Virus record (IMG/VR): IMGVR_UViG_3300035220_000258
Span: 1-49,310 of that record
Reading direction: 5' to 3' (one strand)
Length of the DNA stretch: 49,310 nucleotides
Origin: a virus
The position numbers and the translations under genes are program-made. Below the pieces are notes generated by a model. It was not told the origin of the DNA and searched no databases. It worked only from the letters and a program-made list of their open reading frames with translations. Positions 312 to 28,754 of this stretch are shown here, one piece after another (the stretch's first letter is position 1; the number at the start of each line of letters is the position of its first letter).

Positions 312-1514
312 TTAGAGACCACCGTGACCGTTAGATGCTCCTGCAGACCAACCAGTGGTTTGTACATGCATATCACCAAAATCTACTGCGTCTCCAGTGC
401 TCATAATCTGAATATACTCTATTGTGCTAACCACGGTAGGTTGTGCTCCTCCCATGATTACACATCTTGTAGGAGATGCTGTTGCTGCTGCGTTTCCTCT
501 TACTGCACTAAGATTACCAAAGTCTATTGAGTTTCCAAGAGTTGGAATATTAACATACTCAATTGTATTTACGTAAGCAGGGTGACTATAACCACCCATA
601 ATTATTCCACGAACTGAATTAGAAGTTATCCCATTTCCTGGCGCACTTTTATTAGCAATTAAATCACCAAAGTCTGCAGAGTTACCCTGCGTTGACATTG
701 TTATGTACTCAATATAATTATAATACGCTGGATGTGCTCTACCACCAGAAAATATTCCACGAGTAGAAGAACACATCGCTCCCATATTTGATCTACTGTT
801 TGATAGATTTCCAAAATCCTGTACAGCAACACCTTTTGATTGAATTGTTATGTACTCAATAGTATCTGTTTGTCCTGGATTATATCCACCAGCAAATATT
901 CCTCTAGTACCATTTGATGCTCCTGCTGCACCACCCCTTGTTGTTGATAAGTCTATACCAAAATCTATTGCATCTCCTGTTGATGCTATGGTTACATATT
1001 CTATATGTGCATATCCAGTAGGAGTTCCAACTCCATAACCACCTGCAGAGATTCCTCTAGTTTTGTCAGAAGTTGCTACATTAACATGAGTCCGGTCAGT
1101 TACTATTAACTCACCAAAATATTGTGTATTACCGGTTGTTGCCAAGTTAATATAAAGAATATCATCCAAATACGTATTATTAGGATTATATCCACCAAAA
1201 TTTAAACCACGAGTTCCACCAGTCATCAAATCTGGTGACCAACTATCAACTTCCATCCATATTCCGTTGGGAGTTGTTCCAAATCCAACGGGTCCGAGTA
1301 TATAAACTTCTAATTTCTTGGAGTCAGTATTAAATCTGATTGATCCTGCGGGTGCTTGATTGTAAGAAGGAAGTTCTTGTGCAGAAGAATCACCGAAGGC
1401 ACTTCCACCACCGACTGTGGAATAACCTCCACCACCTCCAGAACCACCTGAACCACCTGAACCGCCGGAGCCACCGCCTCCGCCGCCGCCTCCTCCGCCG
1501 CCACCGTATCCCAT
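312..1514 (-). CDS. Kelch-like six-repeat protein, class B, with polyglycine N-terminus
   Basis: Putative virion adhesin of 400 aa and the last gene of the array. Residues 1-33 are a Gly/Ser tract beginning MGYGGGG, followed by a linker. IRFNTDS is at 59-65, with LEV and W86 completing the class B module. Six repeats run from about residue 101 to the end (TRGLNFGGY, TRGISAGGY, TRGIFAGGY, TRGIFSGGR, VRGIIMGGY, TRCVIMGGA) and the chain closes with SNGHGGL. It is closest to the 3806-4912 protein blade by blade, including YINLATTG against YINMATTG in blade 1 and an insertion in blade 3. Its ATG overlaps the stop of the upstream gene by 1 nt (TAATG), with GGAGG at 1524-1528. The propeller fold and receptor-binding role are inferred. 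Confidence 0.85.
   Translation of the reverse strand: MGYGGGGGGGGGGGGSGGSGGSGGSGGGGGYSTVGGGSAFGDSSAQELPSYNQAPAGSIRFNTDSKKLEVYILGPVGFGTTPNGIWMEVDSWSPDLMTGGTRGLNFGGYNPNNTYLDDILYINLATTGNTQYFGELIVTDRTHVNVATSDKTRGISAGGYGVGTPTGYAHIEYVTIASTGDAIDFGIDLSTTRGGAAGASNGTRGIFAGGYNPGQTDTIEYITIQSKGVAVQDFGNLSNSRSNMGAMCSSTRGIFSGGRAHPAYYNYIEYITMSTQGNSADFGDLIANKSAPGNGITSNSVRGIIMGGYSHPAYVNTIEYVNIPTLGNSIDFGNLSAVRGNAAATASPTRCVIMGGAQPTVVSTIEYIQIMSTGDAVDFGDMHVQTTGWSAGASNGHGGL
1419..1514 (-). repeat. Low-complexity polyglycine coding tract
   Basis: GGN/AGY codon runs encode 12 consecutive glycines and then repeated GGS units. Slippage in such a tract could change its length. A related tract encodes the first 32 residues of the 2608-3774 protein (about 3679-3774). 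Confidence 0.75.
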
Positions 1515-2584
1515 TAGCCTAGACCTCCATGTGAATCACAGACACTTCCATATACTCTTCTACCATGACTTAAATTACCAAAGTCAGATGAATTGCCGGT
1601 GGTTGCTATAGTTATATACTCTATCGTATCTCCAGCAGAAGGTGTTCCTGGAAGAAAAACTCCTCTGGTGGGACTTGATACTGCCGCCCCAGCCTCAGCA
1701 CCAGCACCTGCATCTCCAAAATCAATAGCATCTCCTAATGATGCCATTGTTATAAAATCAATAGTATTATTGTAAGTGCTTGGATTAACACTACCTTGCA
1801 TTACCATTCTTGTTGATGATGTCATACTGCCAGCAGTATTTGACCTTGCTACGGTCATATCACCAAAATCTTGTGTATTACCAGTGGTCATTATGCTTAC
1901 ATATTCAATAGTATTAAGTAAAATGGCGGCAACTCCTGGTGTTCCTCCTAGACAAGAACCCCATATTCCACGAGTTGTGTTTGATCCGGTGTGTGATCTT
2001 CTTCCTTTATTTGCAAGTTCACCAAAATAAGAGGAATCTCCTTTTGTTGCAATGGTATAATATCCCATATTACCCAACCAAAGATTTGGTGTATTACCTG
2101 CGGTTGCATAATCAAAATATCCACCACCATATACTCCTCTAATTTGATTTGATGTTCCAGCAGCAGCAGGATTAAAATGATTGATTAAATCACCAAAATC
2201 AAATGCATTACCTGTTGATGATATGGTAACGTAATCAATTATATTAAAATAGGCTCCCGTTGGTGAAAATCTTCCGTTTATAAAAATTCCTCTTGTAGCA
2301 CTACTTCCACCGCACTTTGCTGATCTTCCTTGAGACAAATCACCAAAGTCATGTGCATCACCTAGTGTTGCAATAGTTATATAGTCCAGGATATTCATCC
2401 CCGGATAGGGAGAACCTGCGTCATATCCACCACCAAAAATACCACGACCTCTACCACCACGATAAGCAGTATCACCTCTTGGTAGTGACATTGCACCATT
2501 AGAGTTCATCTCAACGGTGCCAGAAATTTCAGGACCATTAGTCCCACTCAAACTTTGTATATTGTTTACCTTAATGTCTGACAT
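1514..2584 (-). CDS. Kelch-like six-repeat protein, class A
   Basis: Putative virion adhesin of 356 aa. The short class A N-terminus reads IKVNNIQS, then GPEISG and LPRGDTAYRGG, and lacks the IRFNTDS segment. Six repeats start near residue 46 (GRGIFGGGY, TRGIFINGR, IRGVYGGGY, TRGIWGSCL, TRMVMQGSV, TRGVFLPGT) and end in CDSHGGLG. Several blades have lost the double glycine (GSC, QGS, PGT). Its N-terminus is nearly the same as that of the 4912-5922 protein (shared RGDTAYRGGRGRG or SGDTAYRGGRGRG), so the two are close paralogs. It starts 20 nt after a late promoter octamer and is coupled to the class B gene that follows. Confidence 0.85.
   Translation of the reverse strand: MSDIKVNNIQSLSGTNGPEISGTVEMNSNGAMSLPRGDTAYRGGRGRGIFGGGYDAGSPYPGMNILDYITIATLGDAHDFGDLSQGRSAKCGGSSATRGIFINGRFSPTGAYFNIIDYVTISSTGNAFDFGDLINHFNPAAAGTSNQIRGVYGGGYFDYATAGNTPNLWLGNMGYYTIATKGDSSYFGELANKGRRSHTGSNTTRGIWGSCLGGTPGVAAILLNTIEYVSIMTTGNTQDFGDMTVARSNTAGSMTSSTRMVMQGSVNPSTYNNTIDFITMASLGDAIDFGDAGAGAEAGAAVSSPTRGVFLPGTPSAGDTIEYITIATTGNSSDFGNLSHGRRVYGSVCDSHGGLG
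1524..1528 (-). promoter_or_regulatory. Shine-Dalgarno GGAGG inside HGGL codons
   Basis: The GGA-GG(T) codons for the two glycines of HGGLG in the upstream gene form the ribosome binding site, 9 nt before the next ATG. This supports the overlapping TAATG start of the 312-1514 gene. Confidence 0.75.
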
Positions 2585-2604
2585 CGGTTAATATCTCATA
2601 CTCT

Positions 2605-2612
2605 TATTTATC
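2605..2612 (-). promoter_or_regulatory. Late promoter octamer GATAAATA containing the upstream stop codon
   Basis: The TAA of the 2608-3774 gene (2608-2610) is part of the octamer. The final A-B pair of the array starts 20 nt downstream. The Shine-Dalgarno there is weak. Confidence 0.65.
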
Positions 2613-3774
2613 CAAGACCGCCATGGGAATCAGAAAGACCATCATTTCTTGATCCTCCATCTCTTGCCGCACCAGCAACTAGATCGCCAAAATCAATAGC
2701 ATTTCCTAATGTTGAGATGGTAACATAATCAATTACATTTGATTGTGTTGGGGTATCAGTCCCACCAGCAAATAGTCCTCTAATTTGTGATGCTGCAGCA
2801 CCTCCATCATATCTTGCCGTAGTTAAATCACCAAAATCTTGTGCATTTCCAAATGATGCGATAGTTATGTATTCAATGTTATTAATATGAGCACTTGACC
2901 CAGAACCCAGATCTTGATTGTTACCTAAAGCTTTAAGACCACGGACTGAATTAGAGCATCCAGTTCCCTCATTATTCTTTGATTGAATTTGATCACCAAA
3001 GTCTTGTGAATTTCCTGTTGTTGCAATCGTAATATATTCTATTGTGTTTACAAATGCTGGACCAGGAGTTTTAGCAGAGAAAAATATTCCACGGGTTGAA
3101 CTTGCAAATGATCCGCCATCTCCAGAGGGTTCTATTAAATTACCAAAATTAGTTACATTTCCTGTTGATGCTATTGTCACATATTCCATTATATCTGTGA
3201 TTACTGGAGTAAAACCTCCCATAAAAACACCACGAGTTTCATTGGAACATCCTCCTAGTCCTCTTCTATTTCCAGTCAAATCCCCAAAATCAAATGCATT
3301 TCCTGTTGCAGAAATAGTAAAATATTCTATATGAGTTCCAAGAGATGCATATGTTGATCCTCCAAATATACCACGAGTTGATGATGATAAACCAGCAGCC
3401 CACATACTATTGGTGAGACTACCAAAATTAACTGCATTTCCTGTAGTTGCAATAGTGACATAATCAATGAGTTTTGCTGTTGGTGTATCCCGATATCCAC
3501 CAGTAAAAACAGCACGACCTCTACTACCTCTCTCTGCCGTAGTTCCACTTGGAGGAATGAAGTGTGCTGTAGAATTTACTTTTACAATACCATCAACTTC
3601 TGTCCCACTACTTCCGTCTCTACTGGTTATATTATCTACTTTTATATTTGCGGTTCTATCATCACCTACACGACGATACCCGGATCCACCAGAAGCACCG
3701 GACCCTCCTGATCCACCAGAACCGCCTCCACCACCGGAGCCACCTCCACCGCTTCCACCGCCACCGTATCCCAT
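2608..3774 (-). CDS. Kelch-like six-repeat protein, class A, with polyglycine N-terminus
   Basis: Putative virion adhesin of 388 aa. Residues 1-32 are Gly/Ser-rich, again starting MGYGGGG as in the 312-1514 protein. A class A module follows (ANIKVDNIT at 42-50, EVDGIVKV, FIPPSGTTAERG at 72-83). The six repeats begin at about residue 86 (GRAVFTGGY, TRGIFGGST, TRGVFMGGF, TRGIFFSAK, VRGLKALGN, IRGLFAGGT) and the protein ends SDSHGGLG. It sits alone between two late promoter octamers, so it may be a single-gene unit. The stop TAA at 2608-2610 lies inside the downstream octamer. The same glycine leader on a class A and a class B gene suggests that it is an exchangeable module. Confidence 0.85.
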   Translation of the reverse strand: MGYGGGGSGGGGSGGGGGSGGSGGSGASGGSGYRRVGDDRTANIKVDNITSRDGSSGTEVDGIVKVNSTAHFIPPSGTTAERGSRGRAVFTGGYRDTPTAKLIDYVTIATTGNAVNFGSLTNSMWAAGLSSSTRGIFGGSTYASLGTHIEYFTISATGNAFDFGDLTGNRRGLGGCSNETRGVFMGGFTPVITDIMEYVTIASTGNVTNFGNLIEPSGDGGSFASSTRGIFFSAKTPGPAFVNTIEYITIATTGNSQDFGDQIQSKNNEGTGCSNSVRGLKALGNNQDLGSGSSAHINNIEYITIASFGNAQDFGDLTTARYDGGAAASQIRGLFAGGTDTPTQSNVIDYVTISTLGNAIDFGDLVAGAARDGGSRNDGLSDSHGGLG

Positions 3775-3802: not shown

Positions 3803-3810
3803 TATTTATC
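3803..3810 (-). promoter_or_regulatory. Late promoter octamer GATAAATA containing the upstream stop codon
   Basis: The TAA of the 3806-4912 gene (3806-3808) is part of the octamer. The 2608-3774 gene begins 28 nt further on, after CGGAG. Confidence 0.65.
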
Positions 3811-4912
3811 CCAGTCCACCGTGACCGTTAGATAATCCTGCAGAGTAACCAGTAGGTTGTGTGTTTATATCACCAAAGTCAACTGAATTTCCTGTGCTCA
3901 TGATTTGAACATATTCTATTGTATTATTATATGCCGGATGACCCTGACCAAATCTCACACATCTTGTAGAAGATGCTGCTGCTGCCGCATGTGCTCCAGC
4001 AGTAGCAGTTAACTCACCAAAATCTTTTGCATTTCCAAGAGTTGCTATTGTAAAATATTCAATGGTATTAGTAGCACCTGGTGTCATACCTCCCATCCTT
4101 ATTCCACGAACACTATTAGAAGATATTGATGATCCATGACCACTATCACCAGCAGCAGACATATCACCAAAATCTGCAGCATTACCCAACGTTGACATTG
4201 TTACAAAATCAACGCTATTTACAACTCCAGGTTCTCCTCCACCAGCAAATAATCCACGAGTGGATGAACTAAATGATGCCATAAAGTATCTTCTTGCTGC
4301 TGTCAAATCACCAAAGTCTTGTGCAGCAACACCTGTTGATTGGATAGTTATATAATCAATATTGGCATTTTGATTGGCAGCAGGACTGTGTCCACCAACT
4401 ATTAATCCTCTAGTGCCATTTGATGCTACCGCTGACGAATATCTAGCACCAGTTAAATTTGCACCAAAATCTACTGCATTTCCTGTGGATGCTATGGTTA
4501 CAAATTCTATATCATCAGTGATAACACCAGGAAATTTAGAACCACCTGCTGAAATACCCCTTGTTCTATCTGATGTACAAGAATGAACGTGATTTCTATC
4601 AGATACCGTTAATTCACCAAAAGAAAGTGAATTTCCAGTTGTTGCCATATTGATATAAACAATTTCATCCAAATATTGGCCGGAAGGATGATATCCACCC
4701 ACAAGTAGACCACGAGTTCCACCAGTCTGAATATCTGGTGAATCAGTTGTGATCTGAACCCATTCTCCTGCTGCAAGATTTCCAATACCAGCATAAGAAC
4801 CTGTATCTCCACCTTCCATTCCAATACGGAAATACTCTAACTTCATAGAGTCCGTGTTGAATCTGATTGCTCCCGGAGTGATATTAAGTGGTGGTAATTC
4901 TTCGTGTGCCAT
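3806..4912 (-). CDS. Kelch-like six-repeat protein, class B
   Basis: Putative virion adhesin of 368 aa. The class B segment is IRFNTDSMKLEY at 16-27, followed by an AGIGNLAAGEW stretch (W51) that is shared almost exactly with the 5922-6974 protein. Six repeats run from about residue 66 (TRGLLVGGY, TRGISAGGS, TRGLIVGGH, TRGLFAGGG, VRGIRMGGM, TRCVRFGQG) and end in SNGHGGLG. Blade 3 carries the longer STGVAAQDFGDL form seen at the same position in its two closest relatives. The ATG overlaps the upstream stop by 1 nt, with GGAGG at 4922-4926. Its own stop falls inside the late promoter for the 2608-3774 gene. Confidence 0.85.
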   Translation of the reverse strand: MAHEELPPLNITPGAIRFNTDSMKLEYFRIGMEGGDTGSYAGIGNLAAGEWVQITTDSPDIQTGGTRGLLVGGYHPSGQYLDEIVYINMATTGNSLSFGELTVSDRNHVHSCTSDRTRGISAGGSKFPGVITDDIEFVTIASTGNAVDFGANLTGARYSSAVASNGTRGLIVGGHSPAANQNANIDYITIQSTGVAAQDFGDLTAARRYFMASFSSSTRGLFAGGGEPGVVNSVDFVTMSTLGNAADFGDMSAAGDSGHGSSISSNSVRGIRMGGMTPGATNTIEYFTIATLGNAKDFGELTATAGAHAAAAASSTRCVRFGQGHPAYNNTIEYVQIMSTGNSVDFGDINTQPTGYSAGLSNGHGGLG

Positions 4913-5922
4913 TATCCTAAACCTCCATGTGAATCAGAACAACCTGCACCATATGATTGACCAACGATTATATCTCCAAAATTAACTGCATTTCCTAAAG
5001 TATCTATGGTAATATAATCTATTACATCTGAAATACCAGAACTTTTGTATCCTCCAGCAAATAAACCACGAGTTGGCGATGATGCAGTTCCTTTCATTGA
5101 AGATCTTGCTTCCGTTAGATTACCAAAGTCAATAGCATCCCCAGTTGATGCCATTGTTACATAATCAATTCTGTCTTGATATGAAGGAGACGTACCTCCT
5201 GCAAGAATTCCTCTTGTTGAATTACTACAGCAATTTAGATGAGTACGAGCAAGAGATAAATCACCAAAGTCAATGGAATTACTCTCGGTTGTAAAATTAA
5301 AATATTCTATAGTTTCGGATGTAGCAAGAGTAAGATCTCCAGAAAATAAACCTCTTGTTGATGACTGAAATCCCCCAGTTAATTGTTTAGGAATATCTAA
5401 ATTTCCAAAACTTGAACTATTTCCTAAAGATGATATTGTTATTTTTTGTACATCTGATAGATCTGTTGTTCCTCCACCAGTAGAACCACCTGCTAAAAGT
5501 CCTGTTACATTATTTGAAGCACCTGAAGATGTTCTTCTTCCCTCGGGAAGATCTCCAAAGTCAAATGCACTGCCAGTAGATGAGATAGTTACATAGTCAA
5601 TTACATTTCTATCTCCCGGTGCTTCATAACCAGAAAACCAAACACCACGAGTAGATGATGCACAGGAACCCATTCTTTTTCTTGATAAAGTTAGGTCACC
5701 AAAATCTTTTGAATCTCCTGTTGTTGCGATAGTTACAAAATCTATTGCTTTATTTGTATCTGTCCCTCCAGCAAACAATCCACGACCTCTACCACCACGA
5801 TAAGCAGTATCACCAGAAGGCATCACAATACCAGAAGTTCCAGTGAAGGTAGTGATACCTGCAATATCTGGTCCTCTGGTTGCATCTTGACTTTTGATTT
5901 GATCAATTCTAAATTCTGACAT
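4912..5922 (-). CDS. Kelch-like six-repeat protein, class A
   Basis: At 336 aa this is the smallest of the 18 paralogs. Its N-terminus is class A: FRIDQIKSQ, GPDIAGITTF, then MPSGDTAYRGGRG, with no IRFNTDS. The six repeats begin at about residue 46 (GRGLFAGGT, TRGVWFSGY, VTGLLAGGS, TRGLFSGDL, TRGILAGGT, TRGLFAGGY) and end in CSDSHGGLG. It lies between two class B genes and overlaps each by 1 nt (TAATG at both ends), with GGAGG at 5929-5933 supplied by the preceding gene. The tight coupling suggests that the three products are made in fixed proportion. Confidence 0.85.
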   Translation of the reverse strand: MSEFRIDQIKSQDATRGPDIAGITTFTGTSGIVMPSGDTAYRGGRGRGLFAGGTDTNKAIDFVTIATTGDSKDFGDLTLSRKRMGSCASSTRGVWFSGYEAPGDRNVIDYVTISSTGSAFDFGDLPEGRRTSSGASNNVTGLLAGGSTGGGTTDLSDVQKITISSLGNSSSFGNLDIPKQLTGGFQSSTRGLFSGDLTLATSETIEYFNFTTESNSIDFGDLSLARTHLNCCSNSTRGILAGGTSPSYQDRIDYVTMASTGDAIDFGNLTEARSSMKGTASSPTRGLFAGGYKSSGISDVIDYITIDTLGNAVNFGDIIVGQSYGAGCSDSHGGLG

Positions 5923-6974
5923 TATAACCCTCCATGACCGTTAGATGTTCCACCACCACCACTTCTACCCGAAGTCAAATCTCCAAAATCAACTGTATTA
6001 CCAGTAGTCATAATTTGAAGATATTGAATTGTATTTACCCTACCATTTCCGGGAGATAGTCTTGTGCCATATGCAATTCTAGTTGGACTTGCACATCCGG
6101 CAAGTTCTCCACTACTATCAGTCAAATCACCAAAATCTTTTGAATTTCCAAGTGTTGCGATAGTTACGTAACTAATATTGTTGTAACTTGTTGCTGATGA
6201 TTTATATCCACCAGCAAATATTCCTCTTATAGCATTTGATGCTCCACCAACACCACCTTGTTGAAGATGAGAATCACCAAAGTCCGCTCCATTTCCAAGA
6301 GTTGATATTGTTACAAACTCCATTTCAGAACTTGCTGGAACATTTGCACGCATAATCACCCCTCTGGTTGGTGATGCACAAGCACCTTGTTGTCCTCCTC
6401 CACCATGTATACAATCACCGAAATCTTGTGCTGTTGTTCCTGATGTTGCAATCGTAAAATAATCAATGGTAGCATTACTGGCACTGTGACCAAGAACATT
6501 ACCACCAGCAGTTATTCCCCTAGTTTGATTGGAAAATTGGGCAGCAAAGACCCTTGCTACAGATAAGTCTCCGTAGTCAAATTGACTTCCGGTTGATGAT
6601 ATTTCAACAGCATCAACTGTATTTACATATGTTGGTTGTGTTTGACCACCAAATAATCCCCTTGTTCTAGACCCACAACCAGCACCAATCATTTGTGCCC
6701 CATTAGTTAAAGTATCAAATGCTATTGCGTTTCCTGTTGATGAAACATTAATATAATCAATTACATCACTGATAGGATATCCACCAGCAAAAATACCACG
6801 AGTTCCACCAGTCTGAACATCTGGTGATGTTGCTTGTATTTCTTCCCATTGACCAGCAGCAAGTGTGCCGATTCCTGCCATTGAAGCAGATCCATTATAG
6901 TTTGCACTACCACGAAAGATCTCCAACTTCATGGAGTCGGTATTAAATCTAAATGCTCCTGGTTTAATCGTCAT
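5922..6974 (-). CDS. Kelch-like six-repeat protein, class B
   Basis: Putative virion adhesin of 350 aa, first gene of a B-A-B unit behind a late promoter octamer at 6997-7004. The class B segment FRFNTDSMKLEIF is at residues 8-20, and AGIGTLAAGQW (W43) matches the 3806-4912 protein. Six repeats start near residue 58 (TRGIFAGGY, TRGLFGGQT, TRGITAGGN, TRGVIMRAN, IRGIFAGGY, TRIAYGTRL) and close with SNGHGGL. Blade 3 has the extended TSGTTAQDFGD form. In blade 2 the usual VTIASTGNA is replaced by VEISSTGSQFDYGDL. The start is supported by GGAGAG a few bases upstream. Confidence 0.85.
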   Translation of the reverse strand: MTIKPGAFRFNTDSMKLEIFRGSANYNGSASMAGIGTLAAGQWEEIQATSPDVQTGGTRGIFAGGYPISDVIDYINVSSTGNAIAFDTLTNGAQMIGAGCGSRTRGLFGGQTQPTYVNTVDAVEISSTGSQFDYGDLSVARVFAAQFSNQTRGITAGGNVLGHSASNATIDYFTIATSGTTAQDFGDCIHGGGGQQGACASPTRGVIMRANVPASSEMEFVTISTLGNGADFGDSHLQQGGVGGASNAIRGIFAGGYKSSATSYNNISYVTIATLGNSKDFGDLTDSSGELAGCASPTRIAYGTRLSPGNGRVNTIQYLQIMTTGNTVDFGDLTSGRSGGGGTSNGHGGL

Positions 6975-6996: not shown

Positions 6997-7004
6997 TATT
7001 TAGA
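6997..7004 (-). promoter_or_regulatory. Late promoter octamer TCTAAATA containing the upstream stop codon
   Basis: The TAA of the 7000-8154 gene (7000-7002) is part of the octamer. The B-A-B unit starts 22 nt downstream. Confidence 0.6.
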
Positions 7005-8154
7005 GTCCTCCGTGACCGTTGGAAAGACCAGCAACACGATCTGCTACATAAGACATATCACCAAAATCTAATGCATTCCCTGTTGTTGGTATAGTTACAA
7101 AATCAATTCTATTAATAAATGCAGGAGTACCATAACCACCAGCCCAAACACCACGGGTAGATGATGCTGCACCACCTCTTCCACCATTATTAACAGTTTG
7201 ATCACCAAAATCTTGTGCATTACCAAGACTTGCAATGGTTATAAATTCCATGGTATTTGTGTATCCAGGATTTCTTATTCCACCAAAAACACATCTGGTG
7301 GAATTTGAGCATCCAGTACTTGTGAGTGTATTACCACTCAAATCTCCAAAGTCTTGTGCATTTCCTGTTGATGATATGGTAATATATTTAATTAATTTTG
7401 ATATGTTGCCTGGTGAAATATATCCACCAGAAAATATACCACGAACAGAACTTGCTCCTCCTCCTGCACCTTCTCTTACACCAACCAAGTTTCCAAAATC
7501 AACTGCATTACCTGTTGATGCGATTGTAATATAATCCATTACATCGCTTCCTGGTCCAGATGGAGCACTGCCACCACCAATAACCCCTCTGGTTGAATTA
7601 GAAAGTGCTCCTCTATATGCTACAGATACCGTAGCATTGCCAAAATCTTGTGCATTTCCAGTGGATGCAATGGTTACAAAATCAATGTCATTCACACGAC
7701 TAGGCAGGGCTGCGTTTGAAAATATACCTCTAGTTCTAGACGAACATCCTGCAGTACCAGTCTTTGGATCAGTTAAATTACCAAAGTCTTGTGAATTTCC
7801 TAATGTTGAAATTGTTATGTATTCAATCTCATTCTTGAGAGCAGGGGCATTACCACCAGCAAATAATCCACGAACTCCTGTCCCTTGTGCAGATCTATCT
7901 GCTGCTAATGTTTGATTACCAAGTTCATTGTTATTAGTAATCACATCAACCCAAAGTTCACCTGTGTAATACTCAAGGTGACCACTATCAGTATTAAACC
8001 TTATCATCCCTTCTCCGGGACTTGAAGGTCTCTGTGTTGTTGAACCTGATGGTGGAACAAAATAGTTTGGTGATGAGAATGTAGAGATACCAGATACTAC
8101 TGGTGCTCCATCTTCGTTCTCGTTAAAAAGATTACCTACATTAAGTCTTGACAT
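7000..8154 (-). CDS. Kelch-like six-repeat protein, class AB
   Basis: Putative virion adhesin of 384 aa with the composite N-terminus: a class A part (RLNVGNLF, PVVSGISTF, YFVPPSGSTTQRP at 31-43) directly followed by a class B part (IRFNTDSGHLEYY at 51-63, W68). A linker NQTLAADRSAQGTG (80-93) is identical in the 9314-10483 protein. Six repeats run from about residue 94 (VRGLFAGGN, TRGIFSNAA, TRGVIGGGS, VRGIFSGGY, TRCVFGGIR, TRGVWAGGY) to SNGHGGL. It is the third of three adjacent AB genes spaced by 2 nt, with GGAGG at 8164-8168. Its stop TAA lies in the TCTAAATA octamer that starts the next unit. Confidence 0.85.
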   Translation of the reverse strand: MSRLNVGNLFNENEDGAPVVSGISTFSSPNYFVPPSGSTTQRPSSPGEGMIRFNTDSGHLEYYTGELWVDVITNNNELGNQTLAADRSAQGTGVRGLFAGGNAPALKNEIEYITISTLGNSQDFGNLTDPKTGTAGCSSRTRGIFSNAALPSRVNDIDFVTIASTGNAQDFGNATVSVAYRGALSNSTRGVIGGGSAPSGPGSDVMDYITIASTGNAVDFGNLVGVREGAGGGASSVRGIFSGGYISPGNISKLIKYITISSTGNAQDFGDLSGNTLTSTGCSNSTRCVFGGIRNPGYTNTMEFITIASLGNAQDFGDQTVNNGGRGGAASSTRGVWAGGYGTPAFINRIDFVTIPTTGNALDFGDMSYVADRVAGLSNGHGGL

Positions 8155-11278: not shown

Positions 11279-11284
11279 ATTTTA

Positions 11285-12100: not shown

Positions 12101-12105
12101 TTTTC

Positions 12106-20183: not shown

Positions 20184-21211
20184 TATAGACCTCCGTGGGC
20201 ATTAGAGCAGGCAGCAAGTCCTTTTTTTACTGCATCCAAATTACCAAAATCTACTGCATTACCTTCTGTTGCAATAATAATATAGTCTATTACGTCTGAT
20301 TTGGATGGAGTTATGCCACCACCAAAGACACCGCGAGTACTAGAAGAACAAGCGGAACCGATTGATCTTGTTACTGATAAATCACCAAACTCAACCGCAT
20401 CGCCACCGGATGCAATGGTAACATATTCTATTGTGTTTATTATAGTTGGAGTTTCGCCACTACCCATGATACCACGAGTGCTTGAAGAGCAACTCATTCC
20501 AGAATTTCTTGCTACAGTTAAATTACCAAAGTCTTGTGCATTTCCTAATGTTGCTGTGGTGATAAATTCTATTTTACTTACTTTACTTGGATTTATTCCA
20601 CCAGAAAATAATCCACGAGTTGGTGATGCTGCTATACCACTAAACAAATATCCTTTTACTTCAGTCAAGTTACCAAAATCTTCTGCATGTCCAGTTGACG
20701 CAATGGTAACATAATCCATTGTGTCAACTTTAGATGGAGAAAAACCACCAGCCCAAACACCGCGAGTGGCTGAAGAAGTAGCACCAGTTCCATATCTTCC
20801 CGTGAACAAGTTTCCAAAGTCAATAGCATTTGCACTAGATGCGATTGTAATAAAATCAATAGTGTCTGTCATAGGGTCGCCACCCCCAGTAACACCACGA
20901 GTGCTGGAGGAGACGGATTGTGGATATTGGACTTTTAATGTCCTATCGCCAAAATCTACTGCATTTCCTGTAGATGAAATGTTTATGTATTCTATTACAT
21001 TCAGTCTTGTTGGTGTTTCTCCCCCTTGAAAAATACCACGAGCACCAGGAGTTGGATCACTAGCATTAGGAGCAACAGTAAGCGGCCCGCCAACGTTTGC
21101 AAGATTTGGTGTTGCAGTATGAACCTGAAACCATGCCGAGCCATTCCAATACTCCAACTTCTGTGAGTCGGAGTTAAATCTCATTGCACCTGCTGGAATC
21201 TCTGCTGACAT
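20183..21211 (-). CDS. Kelch-like six-repeat protein, class B
   Basis: Putative virion adhesin of 342 aa. The class B module is EIPAGAMRFNSDSQKLEYWNGSAW (residues 4-27), followed by a slightly longer linker TPNLANVGGPLTV...TPGARG. Six repeats begin at about 58 (ARGIFQGGE, TRGVTGGGD, TRGVWAGGF, TRGLFSGGI, TRGIMGSGE, TRGVFGGGI) and close with SNAHGGL. Most blades carry the short P-[ST]-[KR]-x-[DNS] loop after the double glycine. First gene of a two-gene unit with the single-LamG protein; octamer GATAAATA at 21231-21238 and AGAGG precede the ATG. Confidence 0.85.
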   Translation of the reverse strand: MSAEIPAGAMRFNSDSQKLEYWNGSAWFQVHTATPNLANVGGPLTVAPNASDPTPGARGIFQGGETPTRLNVIEYINISSTGNAVDFGDRTLKVQYPQSVSSSTRGVTGGGDPMTDTIDFITIASSANAIDFGNLFTGRYGTGATSSATRGVWAGGFSPSKVDTMDYVTIASTGHAEDFGNLTEVKGYLFSGIAASPTRGLFSGGINPSKVSKIEFITTATLGNAQDFGNLTVARNSGMSCSSSTRGIMGSGETPTIINTIEYVTIASGGDAVEFGDLSVTRSIGSACSSSTRGVFGGGITPSKSDVIDYIIIATEGNAVDFGNLDAVKKGLAACSNAHGGL

Positions 21212-21230: not shown

Positions 21231-21238
21231 TATTTATC
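21231..21238 (-). promoter_or_regulatory. Late promoter octamer GATAAATA containing the upstream stop codon
   Basis: The TAA of the 922-aa gene is part of the octamer. The class B gene start is 19 nt downstream with AGAGG between them. Confidence 0.65.
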
Positions 21239-24002
21239 CAAGACCGCCATGGGAGTCTGAACATCCACAAGCTGCAGACATGGTAGACATTAAATCACCA
21301 AAGTTTAATGCATCTCCTGTTGATGCAATTGTAATATAATCGATGTGGTTTGTAGCAGCGGGTATACTGTTGCCACCAGCAAATGTTGCTCTAGTGGAAT
21401 TTGAACTAGCAGCAATGCCTCCCCTTCCTACTGTTAAATTGCCAAAATCCTGTACATTTCCTGTTGATGCTATTGTGACATATTCTATATTATCATATGC
21501 AGCATTTCCGGCTGAATTATAACCACCAGTAAATATTCCACGAGTTGATGAACCAGTTCCCATTGCAGTATATGGTGTATATGAAAGGTCACCAAAATCC
21601 AGTGCATTTCCAAGAGTTGCAATGGTTACATAATGTATATCATTTTGATTATAGACAGGAGCATCAGCACTATCTCTACCTCCAGCAAATAAACCACGAG
21701 TTGGCGATGATGTTGCTGCAGGGTATCTAACACCATTTCCAGTCAAATCACCAAAATCTTGAGAATCACCCAATGATGCGATAATCACATAATTAATTTG
21801 CTTTAATCCAGCAGCTGCGTTTGGTGAAGGTGCTGTGAATCCACCAGCAAATAATCCACGAGTTGATGAGGAACATCCACCCATACCGTAAATAAATGAT
21901 GCGCTTGTTGTTATATCCCCAAAGTCTTGTGCGTTTCCTGTTGTTGCAATGGTTACATAATCAATTGTTTTGTAATAACTTGGATGATCATATCCCTGAG
22001 AAAACAATCCACGAGTTGATGATGCACAGGCAGAGGTGTTTTGTGCAGCAGCTGTCGCATCACCAAAATCTTGTGAGTTTCCTAGAGATGAAATAGTGAT
22101 ATAATTTATAGCATTATCTGCCATTCTAATGAGACCACGACCACTACGACTATCTCTAGTTACCGTATCACCAGTTGGGAGATAGAAATAAGCATCTGTG
22201 TTTATTTTGGTGACACCCTCAAAGGTTATTTGTCTATCATCACCGACTTGTGGTGTGAAGTTTGATGCTGGTGCATCTGCGTCATGAGGAATGGCATATG
22301 CAGAAACATAACCGATTGTTGAATTTGCTCCAGAGGTCTGTAATGATATTGTTGATGTTGTGGATGATGCTGTAAAAATATGTTGCTGTCTACCTATTGA
22401 AGTGACCAAGTAAAAAACATCACCACCTTGTGCCGACCATCCACTGGAGTATACAGCAATACCAGGAGTTCCAGCATCCGATATAATATCAACTATCAAT
22501 GCATATCTTTGTCCAACTACTGTTGCAATTGCTTGGTTCGCAGAACTATACGAGCCAGCATTCGCAGTAATAAGCATATTTCCACTAGACGAAGAAAGTG
22601 TCGCATTTTGTCCAGTCCATCCACTCACATCACTAATAAAAGTTCCACCAGTAACCAGTTCAGGACCATCTGTTCTTTGCAAACTTCCATAACCCGCAAT
22701 AGTCTTCCCAGTTGCTTCTGTGAGTGGATTATCAGGATCTTGGCAAGCTAAAAGAACAGTGCCTGGAACTCTTTTGAGTTCTCTGGTTGGTGGGATGAAG
22801 TCTGCTGTATAGAGTGCAGTGCCTTTGTTTATACGGAAGTTGGAGATGAAACCTTTGTAACGATATAAAGTTGCGGCAAAATTAGTTGCAGGTTGACCAA
22901 CTGTTGCTCCTTGGTCTGTATAGTCAGTAGAACCTGTGTTTATACTTCCAGAAACTTTTACTCCATTAAGAAATACATATCCATTACTTCCATTTCTTAC
23001 AACTGCAAAGTGATGCCATTCTCCGTGCTTAGGAATCCCATAATTTGTAGCTCCGGTTGAACTAGGGAATCCATAAGTGTACAAATTATCATCACTGTTG
23101 ATGCCGATAAAAAGTCCAGTGCTTTGATTATCACTATTTCTACTATCAAAAAGTGTTCTAATTGCTGCAGTATCTGAAACATTAAACCATCCTTCAATCG
23201 TAAAATTACCTGTTCCAAATGCAAAGTCTGTGGACTTAGAAAGAACTAAACCATCTCCAGTCCCATCAAACTCAACAGACCCGGTGATTGCACTACCACC
23301 ACCAGACTTCACAATAGGTGTCAGAATACCAGGAGTGAGTTCACTTGCAACTGCATTTCCGGTGACTGTGATAGTCTTACCAGTCTTTTCAAGTGATGCA
23401 TCAGTCTTTGATTGACAAGCAAGAAGAACAGTCTCTGGTGTAACTTCAAGTTCTCTCATTGGGGGCTTGAAGTTTGATGTATAGAGTGCTTTGCCTTTGA
23501 TTATACGAACATTAGAGATGTGTCCATCAAAATCTGTATTATAACTTGAACCAATTCTCAATCCATCATTAGTATTAGTATAAATGGCACTAGAATCATA
23601 TCGTGACCCTACTTTTTTCCCATCCAAATAAATTGTATATTCTAAATCTTTTCGTATAACTGCATAGTGATGCCAAGTATTTAAAGATATGATGCCATCT
23701 ACACTATCAATTGATACCCCTCCTGTTCCACTAGATGAGAACAAAAATTGCATGGATTCAGTTTGGTCCTTTCTTAATGCAAAAGTTCTTCTGTTATCTC
23801 CAGTATTATAAATTCCTAAAATATCATCCGTTCCTTCATCAAATGCTAATGCCCAACATTCAATGGTAAAATCACCAGACCCAAATTGAAAGTCACTAGA
23901 GACAGCAAGACTTAAATAATCTCCACTACCATCAAACTGAACCGAACCAGTCTTTTCAAAGGTTTCTGTACTTGTAATCTTGTCTACTCTTAAGTTTGCC
24001 AT
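21234..24002 (-). CDS. Kelch-like six-repeat protein, class A, with two LamG-type domains and a CBM-like domain
   Basis: At 922 aa this is the largest propeller paralog. After NLRVDKITS come two LamG-like domains at about 15-190 and 240-415 (GSVQFDGSGDYL and GSVEFDGTGDGL starts; SNVRIIKGKALYT and SNFRINKGTALYT ends). A third beta-rich domain at about 445-565 (ELVTGGTFISDVSGWTG start) looks like a carbohydrate-binding jelly roll. The class A remnant is FYLPTGDTVTRDS. Six repeats start near 625 (GRGLIRMAD, TRGLFSQGY, TRGLFAGGF, TRGLFAGGR, TRGIFTGGY, TRATFAGGN) and end in SDSHGGLG. It starts 1 nt after the stop of an AB gene, with GGAGG at 24011-24015. Confidence 0.85.
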   Translation of the reverse strand: MANLRVDKITSTETFEKTGSVQFDGSGDYLSLAVSSDFQFGSGDFTIECWALAFDEGTDDILGIYNTGDNRRTFALRKDQTESMQFLFSSSGTGGVSIDSVDGIISLNTWHHYAVIRKDLEYTIYLDGKKVGSRYDSSAIYTNTNDGLRIGSSYNTDFDGHISNVRIIKGKALYTSNFKPPMRELEVTPETVLLACQSKTDASLEKTGKTITVTGNAVASELTPGILTPIVKSGGGSAITGSVEFDGTGDGLVLSKSTDFAFGTGNFTIEGWFNVSDTAAIRTLFDSRNSDNQSTGLFIGINSDDNLYTYGFPSSTGATNYGIPKHGEWHHFAVVRNGSNGYVFLNGVKVSGSINTGSTDYTDQGATVGQPATNFAATLYRYKGFISNFRINKGTALYTADFIPPTRELKRVPGTVLLACQDPDNPLTEATGKTIAGYGSLQRTDGPELVTGGTFISDVSGWTGQNATLSSSSGNMLITANAGSYSSANQAIATVVGQRYALIVDIISDAGTPGIAVYSSGWSAQGGDVFYLVTSIGRQQHIFTASSTTSTISLQTSGANSTIGYVSAYAIPHDADAPASNFTPQVGDDRQITFEGVTKINTDAYFYLPTGDTVTRDSRSGRGLIRMADNAINYITISSLGNSQDFGDATAAAQNTSACASSTRGLFSQGYDHPSYYKTIDYVTIATTGNAQDFGDITTSASFIYGMGGCSSSTRGLFAGGFTAPSPNAAAGLKQINYVIIASLGDSQDFGDLTGNGVRYPAATSSPTRGLFAGGRDSADAPVYNQNDIHYVTIATLGNALDFGDLSYTPYTAMGTGSSTRGIFTGGYNSAGNAAYDNIEYVTIASTGNVQDFGNLTVGRGGIAASSNSTRATFAGGNSIPAATNHIDYITIASTGDALNFGDLMSTMSAACGCSDSHGGLG

Positions 24003-24003
24003 C

Positions 24004-25377
24004 TTAGAAACCTCCTAATCCACCGTGTGAGTCTGAACAACCACCTGGTGTGCCAGTTGCCAGATATAAATCTCCAAAGTCCTGTGCATCACCAGTAGAT
24101 GTAATATTTACATACTCAATTGAATTTAGTACGGATGGATTAAGACCTCCTGCCATAACACCTCTTGTATTTGTCGAACTTGAAGCAGGTCTTGCTCTTA
24201 TTGTGGATAACGATCCAAAATCAACAGCATTTCCTTCTGATGCAATAGTAATGTAATCTATTACATTTAAAAGTGCTGGAGTTTGTCCACCAGAAAAACA
24301 TCCACGAACATTGTTAGAAAATGATCCACCAGCACAATTTCTTCTTGCTGTGGTTAAATCACCAAAAAATACTGCATTGCCTTTAGCAGCAATGTTAACA
24401 AAATCAATAACACTTCTATTTGGGGTATTGCCTCCTCCCCAAACTGCTCTTACTCCATTTGAGACAGCACCAGCAGAATATCTACCTACAAATAAATTTC
24501 CAAAATCAAGTGCATTTCCTTTAGTTGACATTTCAATATAATCAATTATGTCTACGGTTGCAGGCGATGGAGATGTAGTGTAACCACCACCAAATATACC
24601 ACGAGTTGATGAGGAAGTTGCTCCCATATATGCTCTATTTGCTGTTGACAACTGACCAAAATCAATTGAATTTCCTGCTGATGCAATAGTTACATATTCG
24701 ATAATGTCACTATAAGATCCAGCTGCTCCGCCAGCCCATATGCCACGAATTGCTGATGAGCAGGATGATATATTACCTTTAGCTAAAGTGAGATCTCCAA
24801 AATATTCAGAATTTCCAAATGTATTAATATTAAAGTATTGAATTACATTAGTATAACCTGGAGTAACTCCACTACCAAGCACCATGCGACCAGCGGCACC
24901 ACCATGATATCTGGCATATGAATTTACTGTCTTCCAATTATTTCCATCAAAGAACTCAAGTGTTCCGAAGTCTTGGTTGAATCTAGTTGTTCCTGCTTCT
25001 GGTGTATTGTCTCTACTATTTGTATCACCAAGAGGAACAGCAAACTTATTAGTAACTGTGAGTGTCTTTGTCTTTCCTACTTCTACTGTTGAACCAGATG
25101 ATACTGTTGTCTCTCCAGTAATTCTAATCTCACCGGATAGAGAACTGAAAGGACCACTAGAACCATTATCAATTAATACATTATTAGCAATATTGCTTTG
25201 TGTTTGGTGAAAACCTTGATACTCTCTGAAGGTTGATACTCCACCACTACCAGCAGTATTGTCCGCAAGAATCTGTCCAGCAACATCTACGCGAGCAGTT
25301 GGATTTGTGGTGCCGATTCCAACCTGCTCACCTACTAAATTAAAATCAGTTGATAGACCAATTCTTATACTTGGCAT
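24004..25377 (-). CDS. Kelch-like six-repeat protein, class AB, with VGIGTTNP virion-type N-terminus
   Basis: Putative virion adhesin of 457 aa. The first 60 residues (SIRIGLSTDF, VGIGTTNPTARVDVAG) resemble the openings of the large fibre proteins upstream. Residues 78-120 (SLSGEIRITGETTV... FAVPLGDTNSRD) form the class A part, and TTRFNQDFGTLEFFDGNNW (130-148) the class B part. Six repeats run from about 163 (AGRMVLGSG, IRGIWAGGA, TRGIFGGGY, VRAVWGGGN, VRGCFSGGQ, TRGVMAGGL) to SDSHGGLGGF. The ATG overlaps the stop of a possible 10-codon mini-ORF that bridges it to the upstream gene. A late octamer lies 18 nt upstream. Confidence 0.85.
   Translation of the reverse strand: MPSIRIGLSTDFNLVGEQVGIGTTNPTARVDVAGQILADNTAGSGGVSTFREYQGFHQTQSNIANNVLIDNGSSGPFSSLSGEIRITGETTVSSGSTVEVGKTKTLTVTNKFAVPLGDTNSRDNTPEAGTTRFNQDFGTLEFFDGNNWKTVNSYARYHGGAAGRMVLGSGVTPGYTNVIQYFNINTFGNSEYFGDLTLAKGNISSCSSAIRGIWAGGAAGSYSDIIEYVTIASAGNSIDFGQLSTANRAYMGATSSSTRGIFGGGYTTSPSPATVDIIDYIEMSTKGNALDFGNLFVGRYSAGAVSNGVRAVWGGGNTPNRSVIDFVNIAAKGNAVFFGDLTTARRNCAGGSFSNNVRGCFSGGQTPALLNVIDYITIASEGNAVDFGSLSTIRARPASSSTNTRGVMAGGLNPSVLNSIEYVNITSTGDAQDFGDLYLATGTPGGCSDSHGGLGGF
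24011..24015 (-). promoter_or_regulatory. Shine-Dalgarno GGAGG inside GGF codons
   Basis: In this gene the HGGL codons read GGT-GGA and give a weaker site. The extra GGF codons (GGA-GGT-TTC) supply GGAGG 8 nt before the ATG of the 922-aa gene. Confidence 0.75.
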
Positions 25378-25409
25378 TATACTACAACTTTCTTATATTT
25401 ATCAAACAT
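25377..25409 (-). other. Possible 10-codon mini-ORF linking two propeller genes
   Basis: On the minus strand ATG (overlapping the upstream TGA as TGATG) opens MFDKYKKVVV and ends in TAA, which overlaps the next ATG as TAATG. GGAGG at 25416-25420 is well placed in front of it. It may serve only as a re-initiation bridge, or be chance. Confidence 0.35.
25396..25403 (-). promoter_or_regulatory. Late promoter octamer GATAAATA
   Basis: Lies 18 nt upstream of the 24004-25377 gene and inside a possible 10-codon mini-ORF. It would start a unit of an AB gene followed by the largest class A gene. Confidence 0.6.
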
Positions 25410-27256
25410 CAGAAACCTCCTAGTCCGCCGTGAGAGTCTGATACTGAACCAGTCATATATCCTTTTTCCCTGTAAAGATCTCCAAAATCTAGACTATCAC
25501 CTAAGGATGCAAAGTTAACATAATCAATTTCTGTATGATGAACCGGATATGAAGATCCGCCTGTCCAGATGCCTCTTGTTGATGTTGAAGAAGCACCAAT
25601 ATAGGTTCTGCTTCCCATCGTTAAGGTGCCAAATTGAATAGCATTACCGGTTGATGCGATTGTAACATATGTCATTGCTCTAGCAGCCTCTCCTCTTTCG
25701 GCCGCAGACCCACCAAGAGTGGGTGCAATATATCCTCCTGCCCAGCACCCTCTTATCCCATTACCACATCCATTTCCAGTTATTCTAGCTACAGAGTCTT
25801 CACCAAAATCAACTGCATTTCCCTTTGATGCAAATGTGGAATAATCAAGTGTTCCGACAGATAGACCTGTCCATGCTGGATGAGAATAATCATCACCAGA
25901 TCCAAATACACCACGAGTTGGAGAACTAATACCACCAGATGCAGATCTCTCATTAGTTAAGTCCCCAAAATCCAGTGCAGCACCAAGAGTTGATATTTGA
26001 ATATAATCTATATCATTGGTAGAATTAACGGCGGGAGTGGGGGTAGCACCACCAGCAAACAAACCACGAGTTGACGATGATGCTGATGCAAAAGCATTTC
26101 TTCCTACGGTCAAATTTCCAAAATCTATTCCATTTCCTTCTGATGCTATTGTAATATAATCCATATCAACCCGTCTTCCAGCATTATATCCACCAGCAAA
26201 TACACCACGAACTTGACTACCTACACCTTGTTTATCTGTAGTTTCATCATTCGCTAGATCTCCAAAGTAAGTTGCATTCCCTCTTGTGTGAATTTGGATA
26301 AGCATCATATCTTTGGTGCGACCATTGCCAGTTATATAACCACCAGCAAATACTGCACGACCACTTCTGGTTGTATTATCTACCTGTCTCCAACCATAAC
26401 CATCAAAGAACTCAATAGTCTTGAAGTCATAGTTATAGTATAACTGTCCTGGTTTTGGTGCATATGGTCTCTCATTTGTTCCACCGTTTGGAGGTGTGAA
26501 AGTATTGAAGACTTTCAGACACTCAATCTCACTTCCACCTGCTCTAGCACCTTTATCTACTAAAGTTGAAAAACCATCAACTAAAATCTCTCCATCAACT
26601 TCAATAGCATTAATAGCACTTAGTGAACCTTGGGTATATTGAACATCAATCGTATTAATTAATCCAGAACCAGTAGCAATTGTCATCCACTGACCAACTG
26701 TTGGAGCACCAATATTAAAAATATATGTGCCACCATTAAGTCTCGCTTTATGTCCCGATGTTCTTAACCAAATGCGAACTCTGTTTTTATATTGTATTGG
26801 AGTTGGTGGTGTAAATGTAAATACTGCTTCATTTACACTTGACATACAATATGTGGTAACGTCACCATCAAAAGCTTTTGATGCCTCATAATTACTTGTG
26901 AAACCACCAGTAGAAACAGTTAAAAAATTACTCCAAACAGTTCCATTATTAGCATTGGCGAATTCATCTTCTACCTTACTAACAGTAACAGTAACACCAG
27001 TTCCTACAATAATCTCACCAGAAAGTGATGAAACCGGACCTTGATCAAAAGTCAGGGTTGTGTTCTCTGTAATCTGGTGGTCTGCTCTCAGGAATCCTTC
27101 ATATGCAGTAAGAGAAGATATTCCAGTAACTTTAAGGTCTTGACCTTTTACAACACCTGCAACATCTAAATTCTGTTGTGGTTCAGTGGTATTAATACCA
27201 ACACCACTATTCTTAATTACAAAATCGTCGGAATAACCTCTTCTTATACTTGCCAT
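25409..27256 (-). CDS. Kelch-like six-repeat protein, class AB, with discoidin-like domain
   Basis: Putative carbohydrate-binding adhesin of 615 aa. It opens SIRRGYSDDF and VGINTTEPQQNLDVAG. A discoidin (F5/8 C)-like domain appears inserted at about residues 100-228, with NYEASKAFDGDVTTYC, RIWLRTSG and IEVDGEILVDG. Then come the class A part (FTPPNGGTNERP at 253-264) and the class B part (LYYNYDFKTIEFFDGYGW at 272-289). Six repeats begin near 298 (GRAVFAGGY, VRGVFAGGY, TRGLFAGGA, TRGVFGSGD, IRGCWAGGY, TRGIWTGGS) and end in SDSHGGLGGF. It starts 1 nt after the upstream stop, with GGAGG at 27265-27269 in the GGF codons of that gene. Confidence 0.85.
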   Translation of the reverse strand: MASIRRGYSDDFVIKNSGVGINTTEPQQNLDVAGVVKGQDLKVTGISSLTAYEGFLRADHQITENTTLTFDQGPVSSLSGEIIVGTGVTVTVSKVEDEFANANNGTVWSNFLTVSTGGFTSNYEASKAFDGDVTTYCMSSVNEAVFTFTPPTPIQYKNRVRIWLRTSGHKARLNGGTYIFNIGAPTVGQWMTIATGSGLINTIDVQYTQGSLSAINAIEVDGEILVDGFSTLVDKGARAGGSEIECLKVFNTFTPPNGGTNERPYAPKPGQLYYNYDFKTIEFFDGYGWRQVDNTTRSGRAVFAGGYITGNGRTKDMMLIQIHTRGNATYFGDLANDETTDKQGVGSQVRGVFAGGYNAGRRVDMDYITIASEGNGIDFGNLTVGRNAFASASSSTRGLFAGGATPTPAVNSTNDIDYIQISTLGAALDFGDLTNERSASGGISSPTRGVFGSGDDYSHPAWTGLSVGTLDYSTFASKGNAVDFGEDSVARITGNGCGNGIRGCWAGGYIAPTLGGSAAERGEAARAMTYVTIASTGNAIQFGTLTMGSRTYIGASSTSTRGIWTGGSSYPVHHTEIDYVNFASLGDSLDFGDLYREKGYMTGSVSDSHGGLGGF

Positions 27257-27257
27257 C

Positions 27258-28754
27258 TTAGAAACCTCCTAGTCCACCGTGTGAGTCTGAAGTGCCCGCA
27301 AAACCCTTTCTTATATTAGATAGATCACCAAAATCTAGTGCATTTCCACCTTCGGATATAAGTATAGTTTCAATACTGGAAAGAATTGTTGGGGTATATC
27401 CACCAGCAAACACACCTCTAATTGAGTTTGATGCTGCGGCGGCCGACATCCTAGCAACTGCCAGATCACCAAAATAAGTTGCATTTCCTTCTGAAGCAAT
27501 ATTTATGTATGAAATCTCGGCTCTCTCCCCACTTGCACTACCATCTTGATTACCTCCAGCAAATATACCCATAATAGGGTTAGAGCATCCTGCTTGCCCA
27601 TAACCTCGAAAACTGAGTTCTCCAAATCTAACTGTATTTCCTTTACTTGCAATAGTTAAAGACTCAATTACTGATTGAGCAACACTACCAAAACCACCCG
27701 CATATATTCCTCTTGTTGGAGAACTACAATCACCACCAGATCTTCTAGTAGTAGTTACATCACCAAAGTCCAGTGCGTTTCCAAGAGTTGGTAATTCAAC
27801 ATAATCTATTGTATTAATATTAGCACTAGTGCTAGTTTTATATCCTCCAAGATTTACTCCTCTAGTGGAAGATGATACTGCATTATAAACAATTCTTCCA
27901 CTATCAGTTAAATTGCCAAAATCTATGGCATTTCCTGTTGATGCTATTGTTATATAATCCATTCTATCAAGTTGACCTGGATTTCTACCACCAGAAAATA
28001 ATCCTCTTGTGGATGAAGAACAACTACCAGGACTTTCTGTTATTCCTACCAAATCACCAAAGTCCAGTGCATTACCAAAAGTTGATATTTGAACATATTC
28101 TATCGTATTTACTATAGCGGGAGTCACTCCACCACCAAATACTGCACGACCACTTTGCTGACTATAAGTGAATTGTTTCCACTCATTTCCATTGAAGAAC
28201 TCAAGTGTGTTCAGGTCAGTATTAAATCTTACGGTTCCTTCTATTGGATTATCTTTTCTATCATTGCTTCCACCATTTGGAACAGAGAAGTGTCCAGTGA
28301 CTGATACTTGTTCCAGTGATCCTGCACAAACATATGATGAGTGACTGTGTGGGTCATACTCACCGATGGTTGTTCTACCAACCATCTCTGTGTTGGTAAT
28401 ATTTAAAATCTGACCCTCATCAATCACCAGATCTTCAGAAAGTGTATTAAATCTTTGATCATCTCCATGATGAACACCACCTAGATCAGTGAATCCTGTC
28501 TCGGTTTCATAGTATTGAGTTAATGTTCCTACACTATTAGTGGTTGCAAAACCAATTGCTGATGGTTTATTGACATGCTGATTCTGTGCAATAAAACCAC
28601 CATAAGATGTTAATGTTGTAACACCAGTGATATTAAAATCTGCTTTGGCAGTTTCCGAAACCTCTAGGAGAGCAGTCGGATTTGCAGTTCCAATTCCAAT
28701 TTTAGAATCTGATACCTTAAAATCAGAACCAAAACCAACTCGTATCGTTGCCAT
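27258..28754 (-). CDS. Kelch-like six-repeat protein, class AB, first gene of the array
   Basis: Putative virion adhesin of 498 aa. The N-terminus has TIRVGFGSDFK and IGIGTANPTALLEV. A region without recognised domain (about 60-150, with a His-rich GGVHHGDDQ and DPHSHSS) follows. The class A part is FSVPNGGSNDRKD (156-168) and the class B part TVRFNTDLNTLEFFNGNEW (174-192). Six repeats start at about 202 (GRAVFGGGV, TRGLFSGGR, TRGVNLGGY, TRGIYAGGF, IMGIFAGGN, IRGVFAGGY) and end in SDSHGGLGGF. It is transcribed first, just after the 1063-aa fibre gene, from octamer TCTAAATA at 28778-28785 with GGAGG before the ATG. Confidence 0.85.
   Translation of the reverse strand: MATIRVGFGSDFKVSDSKIGIGTANPTALLEVSETAKADFNITGVTTLTSYGGFIAQNQHVNKPSAIGFATTNSVGTLTQYYETETGFTDLGGVHHGDDQRFNTLSEDLVIDEGQILNITNTEMVGRTTIGEYDPHSHSSYVCAGSLEQVSVTGHFSVPNGGSNDRKDNPIEGTVRFNTDLNTLEFFNGNEWKQFTYSQQSGRAVFGGGVTPAIVNTIEYVQISTFGNALDFGDLVGITESPGSCSSSTRGLFSGGRNPGQLDRMDYITIASTGNAIDFGNLTDSGRIVYNAVSSSTRGVNLGGYKTSTSANINTIDYVELPTLGNALDFGDVTTTRRSGGDCSSPTRGIYAGGFGSVAQSVIESLTIASKGNTVRFGELSFRGYGQAGCSNPIMGIFAGGNQDGSASGERAEISYINIASEGNATYFGDLAVARMSAAAASNSIRGVFAGGYTPTILSSIETILISEGGNALDFGDLSNIRKGFAGTSDSHGGLGGF

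Follow-up and report, generated by a model that had tools for sequence, protein, structure and literature searches.

A 49,310-base stretch of DNA from a marine, presumably cyanobacterial virus (IMG/VR record IMGVR_UViG_3300035220_000258; hereafter the window) carries an array of 18 genes, K18 (27258-28754) to K1 (312-1514), that probably encode late, tail-fibre-associated adhesins, in which N-terminal parts specific to each position of the array and conserved there (hereafter sockets) are combined with exchangeable C-terminal heads of the Kelch type. All 18 open reading frames (ORFs) lie on the minus strand, as does every long convincing gene of the window, and their predicted products range from 336 to 922 amino acids (aa). 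The term adhesin is applied to these proteins in a putative sense throughout.

The repeats were detected with a 48-position hidden Markov model (HMM) built from the repeats themselves, which identified 108 copies at 20-75 bits, exactly six for every array protein. Shuffled versions of the proteins, 360 in number, yielded no copy at 8 bits, and eight further large proteins from the window yielded none at 5 bits. These counts agree with those of an earlier reading made from the letters alone (the sequence-only reading), which had reported six repeats in every protein irrespective of length; the count of six applies to a degenerate form of the RGxFxGGY repeat used in that reading, the literal string being present only 0-2 times per protein. 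The analysis of homologs encompassed related IMG/VR loci and parts of their contigs, yielding 182 non-redundant complete ORFs, including those of the window, with six repeats in 164 of them, twelve in 16, five in one and three in one, the latter corresponding to one half of a split gene. Judging by sequence spacing and an internal HGGL motif, the twelve-repeat proteins consist of two blocks of six, joined by a linker of ~17-30 residues in which HGGL is often present. Synechococcus phage S-SKS1, a distant relative with a different repeat wording, harbors two twelve-repeat arrays, each interrupted by an insert between repeats six and seven, as counted by eye across broken frames. The single-virus genomes AG-345-L05 and AG-345-O18 present a third repeat type, with 18 copies in each of two proteins and wider spacing after the sixth and twelfth, 17 detected copies with similar block spacing in a third protein, and 11 detected copies flanking a long insert, LamG-like by eye, in a fourth. 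Repeat counts in multiples of six therefore fit a closed ring rather than a rod, and the expectation of the sequence-only reading that homologs with five, seven or eight repeats would not appear at similar frequency was borne out. The sequence patterns used detected no relative among 84,980 cellular genomes. Five genes for related propellers are each divided into two ORFs shortly after a GG (locus L021 at 9018 and 10084, L053 at 4238, L054 at 9723 and L055 at 10249), yielding 2+4, 3+3 or 1+5 repeats, with an ATG within ~20 bases after the stop codon and purine-rich GG codons at the expected Shine-Dalgarno position; these may represent two-chain propellers or sequence errors.

The AlphaFold2 model of K14, generated from an 82-sequence alignment, reached a mean predicted local distance difference test (pLDDT) score of 92.1 and a predicted template modelling (pTM) score of 0.83, and depicts, for this one member and as a model, a closed ring of six four-stranded blades. 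Every solved structure that Foldseek listed for this model was either a Kelch domain or a designed propeller of Kelch-like type (KLHL12, E 8.6e-19; KLHL17; KEAP1; SAKe6), with target-normalised TM scores of 0.82-0.90 for most of the Kelch PDB entries. Among viral models, the best matches were to a protein of an uncultured phage, to S-SKS1 and to phage proteins bearing the name Kelch. The modeled chain opens with strand B of the first repeat and finishes with an extra C-terminal strand reaching residue 336 of 342, and for this reason the C-terminal strand would close the ring by completing blade 1. The terminal NAHGGL comes after this last strand, so that the C-terminal closure envisaged in the sequence-only reading is retained in the model, but the closing strand lies just before the HGGL tail instead of within it; DFGDL, interpreted in that reading as a turn, forms part of a strand. 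Across 1,176 repeats, the double glycine ending strand B is preserved (Gly in 86% and 91% of repeats at positions 6 and 7, respectively), Tyr occupies position 19 in 63%, and the usual Kelch Trp position is taken by Phe in 96%, a substitution that had already been noted from the letters. The model supports the earlier proposal that the array proteins are closed six-bladed Kelch-type propellers. Conservation within the repeats is concentrated in the STGNAxDFGDL and SSSTRG stretches, and variability in positions 8-16, past the double glycine, where insertions are tolerated, and 36-42, past the DL. These two segments correspond to the B-C and D-A loops of a four-stranded meander and hence lie on the same side, so that those of the six blades together make up one hypervariable face. 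Because the hypervariable loops gather on one face, this face is the likely receptor-binding surface of the predicted structure.

The plan of the array recurs in five other contigs, with ~7-9 propeller genes, a four-gene cassette and a further ~7-9 propeller genes, although some contigs stop inside the array. Slot-by-slot comparison with two of these contigs, G003 and G004, revealed that the sockets of K14, K12 and K10-K1 (46-101 aa) are mostly 80-100% identical, with the exception of the K5 slot of G004, where the propeller is replaced, whereas same-slot propellers are mostly 40-54% identical, against a random-pair background of 45.7 ± 4.8. Socket similarity is lower for contigs G006, G009 and G011, which are more distant. 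On the DNA level, socket similarity exceeds propeller similarity in 28 of the 29 pairs compared at the same slot, and the drop in identity, from ~85-100% to ~45-70%, lies no more than one or two 60-base windows from the socket/propeller boundary; the sole exception is K16 and its G004 counterpart, with a head identity of 94% and a socket identity of 78%. Propellers with 83-87% identity were also found on sockets of only 44-50% identity in three pairs (K14 with L010:9836-11005, K10 with L014:9992-11023, and L010:5533-6585 with L020:17747-18769), and an array-type N-terminus bears a LamG_3 lectin-like domain in place of the propeller at the K5 slot of G004, at one slot of G009 and at one of G011, the G011 case as read from the sequence. 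Based on the identity drop at the boundary, the like heads on unlike sockets and the interchange with LamG, we conclude that heads have apparently been swapped as whole units on fixed sockets, with recombination as the probable mode of exchange. The propeller tree was mostly unresolved, and its deep branches were left unused. A recent tandem expansion of the array in this phage was ruled out, given that the slots are common to other contigs in the same order. In the isolate S-RIM2, genes SWTG_00012 to SWTG_00014 (L091, 10678-14226), annotated as hypothetical and located in the tail-fibre locus, combine sockets of a similar type with other heads.

The late promoter motif published for cyanophages is NATAAATA (PMC2984593), and we read CTAAATA as a putative variant of it. 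The window contains 17 T4-type late motifs (ATAAATA or CTAAATA), of which 14 precede a start codon on the coding strand by no more than 50 bp (P ~3e-24). The motif precedes nine propeller genes (K18, K16, K14, K12, K10, K9, K6, K3 and K2) and is absent from the other nine (K17, K15, K13, K11, K8, K7, K5, K4 and K1), each of which starts right behind a propeller gene with GGAGG in its last codons. Several motifs overlap the preceding stop codon (GGA TAA ATA). Among 170 propeller genes, a closely following ATG was observed in 95 of the 116 with GGAGG in their last 30 bases and in 16 of the 54 without it (Fisher P 6e-11), and a TAAATA across the stop codon was associated with the absence of a closely following ATG. 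Since the GGAGG/TAAATA pattern tracks the start of the next gene, the conserved gene ends carry both protein sequence and signals for the gene that follows. The possibility that the terminal HGGL is a mere Shine-Dalgarno site was discarded, as the protein sequence is kept where its codons lack GGAGG and inside twelve-repeat chains. The distribution of promoter motifs suggests that the array is expressed late.

The array is located directly behind tail fibre genes, and socket homologs are found in the tail-fibre loci of cyanophage isolates. Its conservation follows the pattern of receptor-binding proteins, with a conserved N-terminal part and a variable C-terminal head, and its genes are, like those of receptor-binding proteins, encoded with tail genes and, going by their promoter motifs, expressed late. 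These observations are consistent with a virion location and a receptor-binding role for the array proteins. The N-terminal socket would dock on the fibre or baseplate apparatus, and the variable face of the C-terminal propeller would bind a host surface molecule, presumably a surface glycan, with a LamG lectin head occasionally carried in place of the propeller. Phages would retain the sockets in order, and complete heads would pass from phage to phage and from slot to slot through recombination at the socket/propeller boundary. Several points weigh against this interpretation. The Pfam Kelch_1 cut-off was not reached (best score of 16.6 bits versus 20.1), and the proteins are therefore classed here by fold rather than as Pfam Kelch_1 members; a PDB profile search with the paralogue alignment returned no Kelch match (best E 0.029, unrelated); the AlphaFold2 model of a twelve-repeat homolog, based on an 18-sequence alignment, was of low confidence (pLDDT 37.6); and K14 is the one protein modeled among the 18 of the window, as a monomer. 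Placement in the virion and binding are arrived at indirectly, and the function of the sockets is deduced only from where they lie and how well they are conserved. As the contigs derive from metagenomes, individual cross-slot heads could have arisen as assembly chimaeras, but the consistent slot order and the intact genes across six contigs make chimaeras unlikely as a general cause.

Because a Kelch-like protein of the hairy jumbo phage vB_PcaM_CBB is a virion component, detected by mass spectrometry (PMC5259590), the main rival explanation is that the array encodes decoration or whisker proteins distributed over tail or head, and not the tips that bind receptors, with a variable face serving defence escape or weak unspecific adhesion. 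Late promoter motifs would suit such proteins equally, and 18 paralogues exceed the obvious baseplate sites. The placement of the genes after the long tail fibres, the resemblance of the sockets to N-termini encoded in tail-fibre loci and the swapping of the head for a lectin-like fold argue otherwise, and we regard decoration as an unlikely role. It is far less probable still that these are intracellular proteins targeting host proteins in the manner of poxvirus Kelch proteins, with which they share the predicted fold, since the array occupies a tail-fibre locus under late promoters, LamG domains occur in the same chains and socket homologs are encoded in tail-fibre loci.

Two further alternatives concern the heads themselves. 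Fast point mutation under diversifying selection might have generated their divergence in place, without any cassette exchange, in agreement with the high divergence of propellers everywhere and with the fact that propellers paired by slot are, for the most part, no more alike than random paralogues. This scenario is improbable, however, in view of the abruptness with which identity falls around the boundary, within one or two 60-base windows, the near-identical heads on unlike sockets and the K16 head being more alike than its own socket (94% versus 78%). Fibres of other cyanophages are repetitive rods, and the Kelch repeat is not called by sequence profiles at the curated cut-off, both of which would be compatible with six repeats forming an elongated stalk or solenoid of a length set by other constraints. 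This last alternative is largely refuted by counts of 6, 12 and 18 with a linker after every six, and by the resemblance of the confident K14 model to closed Kelch propellers, and it retains hardly any plausibility. Returning to exchangeable heads on fixed sockets, a broader scheme can be advanced tentatively, in which each virion might carry ~18 fixed sockets, each accepting any propeller or lectin, with heads moving between slots and phages at the boundary and a mid-array sulfotransferase/glycosyltransferase-like cassette modifying the heads or their targets.

Kelch-fold phage proteins and phages with multiple adhesins are each already known. The array proteins share with the Kelch propellers of KLHL12, KLHL17, KEAP1 and SAKe6 six four-stranded blades, the double glycine and closure by a C-terminal strand, but differ from them in the use of Phe for Trp, an identity of ~10-15%, scores under the Pfam Kelch cut-offs and the presence of phage N-terminal sockets. 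Phage vB_PcaM_CBB and other giant phages likewise encode clustered proteins of Kelch fold, one of which was found in the CBB virion; CBB has three such proteins, compared to 18 here, and the consulted passage of its report (PMC5259590) does not describe slot-conserved sockets or head exchange. The hyperbranched tail fibres of Klebsiella phage phiKp24 carry 14 predicted receptor-binding depolymerases on docking N-termini (PMC9700779), resembling in outline the many putative receptor-binding proteins proposed here, with short or long N-terminal parts, presumed to dock in our case, and differing C-terminal heads; the phiKp24 heads, in contrast, are beta-helical depolymerases, and those of the array are Kelch propellers or LamG domains in 18 slots of conserved order. 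S-SKS1 is similar in having repeats in blocks of six, twelve per array, around a related sulfotransferase, and differs in its repeat subfamily (DRIDFSNET), its broken reading frames in the record and its annotation as hypothetical only. The Kelch genes of S-SKS1 (L009, 41600-43700 and 44400-46500) have frames broken in the record, leaving one array unannotated. In the open-access literature searched, we found no account of an array of 18 slots whose sockets are conserved and whose propeller heads are exchanged. This agrees with the earlier suggestion that so large an array is an undescribed system; Kelch-fold structural phage proteins as such are already documented, for example in CBB.

The first transcribed gene of the window encodes a long tail fibre protein of 2,058 aa (42783-48959), which matches phrog_529 (E 0) and, with 53% identity over its full length, the tail fibre of Synechococcus phage S-SM2; on account of these matches, the source phage is presumably a T4-like cyanophage. 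Two large proteins follow, of 2,385 aa (35629-42786; phrog_24848) and 1,191 aa (31994-35569; phrog_8578), and then a 1,063-aa tail fibre protein (28789-31980; phrog_30742, tail fiber, E 1.9e-62) immediately upstream of the array, all on the minus strand. K18 combines a 202-aa N-terminal part with a propeller ending in HGGLGGF, and has its CTAAATA motif 24 bp upstream; K17 (25409-27256, 615 aa) has a GGAGG Shine-Dalgarno sequence within the last codons of K18, and is followed by K16 (24004-25377, 457 aa). LamG_3 lectin-like domains precede the propeller in K15 (21234-24002, 922 aa; two domains), K13 (18375-20183, 602 aa; one) and K11 (14888-17332, 814 aa; two), alternating with K14 (20183-21211, 342 aa), K12 (17336-18352, 338 aa) and K10 (13819-14865, 348 aa). 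The second half comprises K9 (9314-10483, 389 aa), K8 (8157-9311) and K7 (7000-8154), both of 384 aa, K6 (5922-6974, 350 aa), K5 (4912-5922, 336 aa), whose socket bears the LamG_3 domain in G004, K4 (3806-4912, 368 aa), K3 (2608-3774, 388 aa), K2 (1514-2584, 356 aa) and K1 (400 aa). Shine-Dalgarno sequences for K8, K7, K4 and K1 lie within the last codons of K9, K8, K5 and K2, respectively, and the late promoter motifs of K6, K3 and K2 overlap the stop codons of K7, K4 and K3. Long poly-Gly/Ser stretches are present at the Gly-rich N-termini of K1 (1514-312) and K3 (3774-2608), the only two sockets with this feature. Six members were scanned against the phrog_19111 profile, which was matched by K1, K5, K7, K14 and K17 (best E 6.7e-20, for K14), with K11 not listed.

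The sequence-only reading had treated the array as continuous from 312 to 28754, but four repeat-free, unrelated genes interrupt it at 10487-13759, leaving nine propeller genes on each side. This minus-strand cassette comprises a phrog_1409-like gene (12830-13759, 309 aa), a phrog_1574 gene (12106-12828, 240 aa) that is possibly glycosyltransferase-like, going by the annotation of a distant homolog, a gene for a Thr/Ser-rich protein (11285-12100, 271 aa) and a sulfotransferase gene (10487-11278, 263 aa; PF13469, E 5.9e-17). The sulfotransferase is 42% identical to that of S-SKS1, likewise situated between Kelch arrays, and related sulfotransferases are encoded next to genes with propeller-type repeats in AG-345-L05 and AG-345-O18, and close to genes with RCC1 repeats in S-SRM01. 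Sulfotransferase genes lie beside propeller-type (Kelch-like or RCC1) genes not only in the window but also at L009 43667-44497, L088 14974-15807, L089 4454-5302 and L090 14986-15768. As a guess, the cassette might modify the heads or their targets.

How marine cyanophages track variable host surfaces is, to our knowledge, an open question, and we know of no receptor-binding proteins for most marine cyanophages. The multiples-of-six rule provides a test of propeller closure that needs sequence only. If the proposed reading is correct, the 18-slot rack would supply concrete and testable candidates for receptor-binding proteins, a rule for recognizing them (a late gene that encodes a socket together with six repeats) and a set of binding heads already exchanged in nature.

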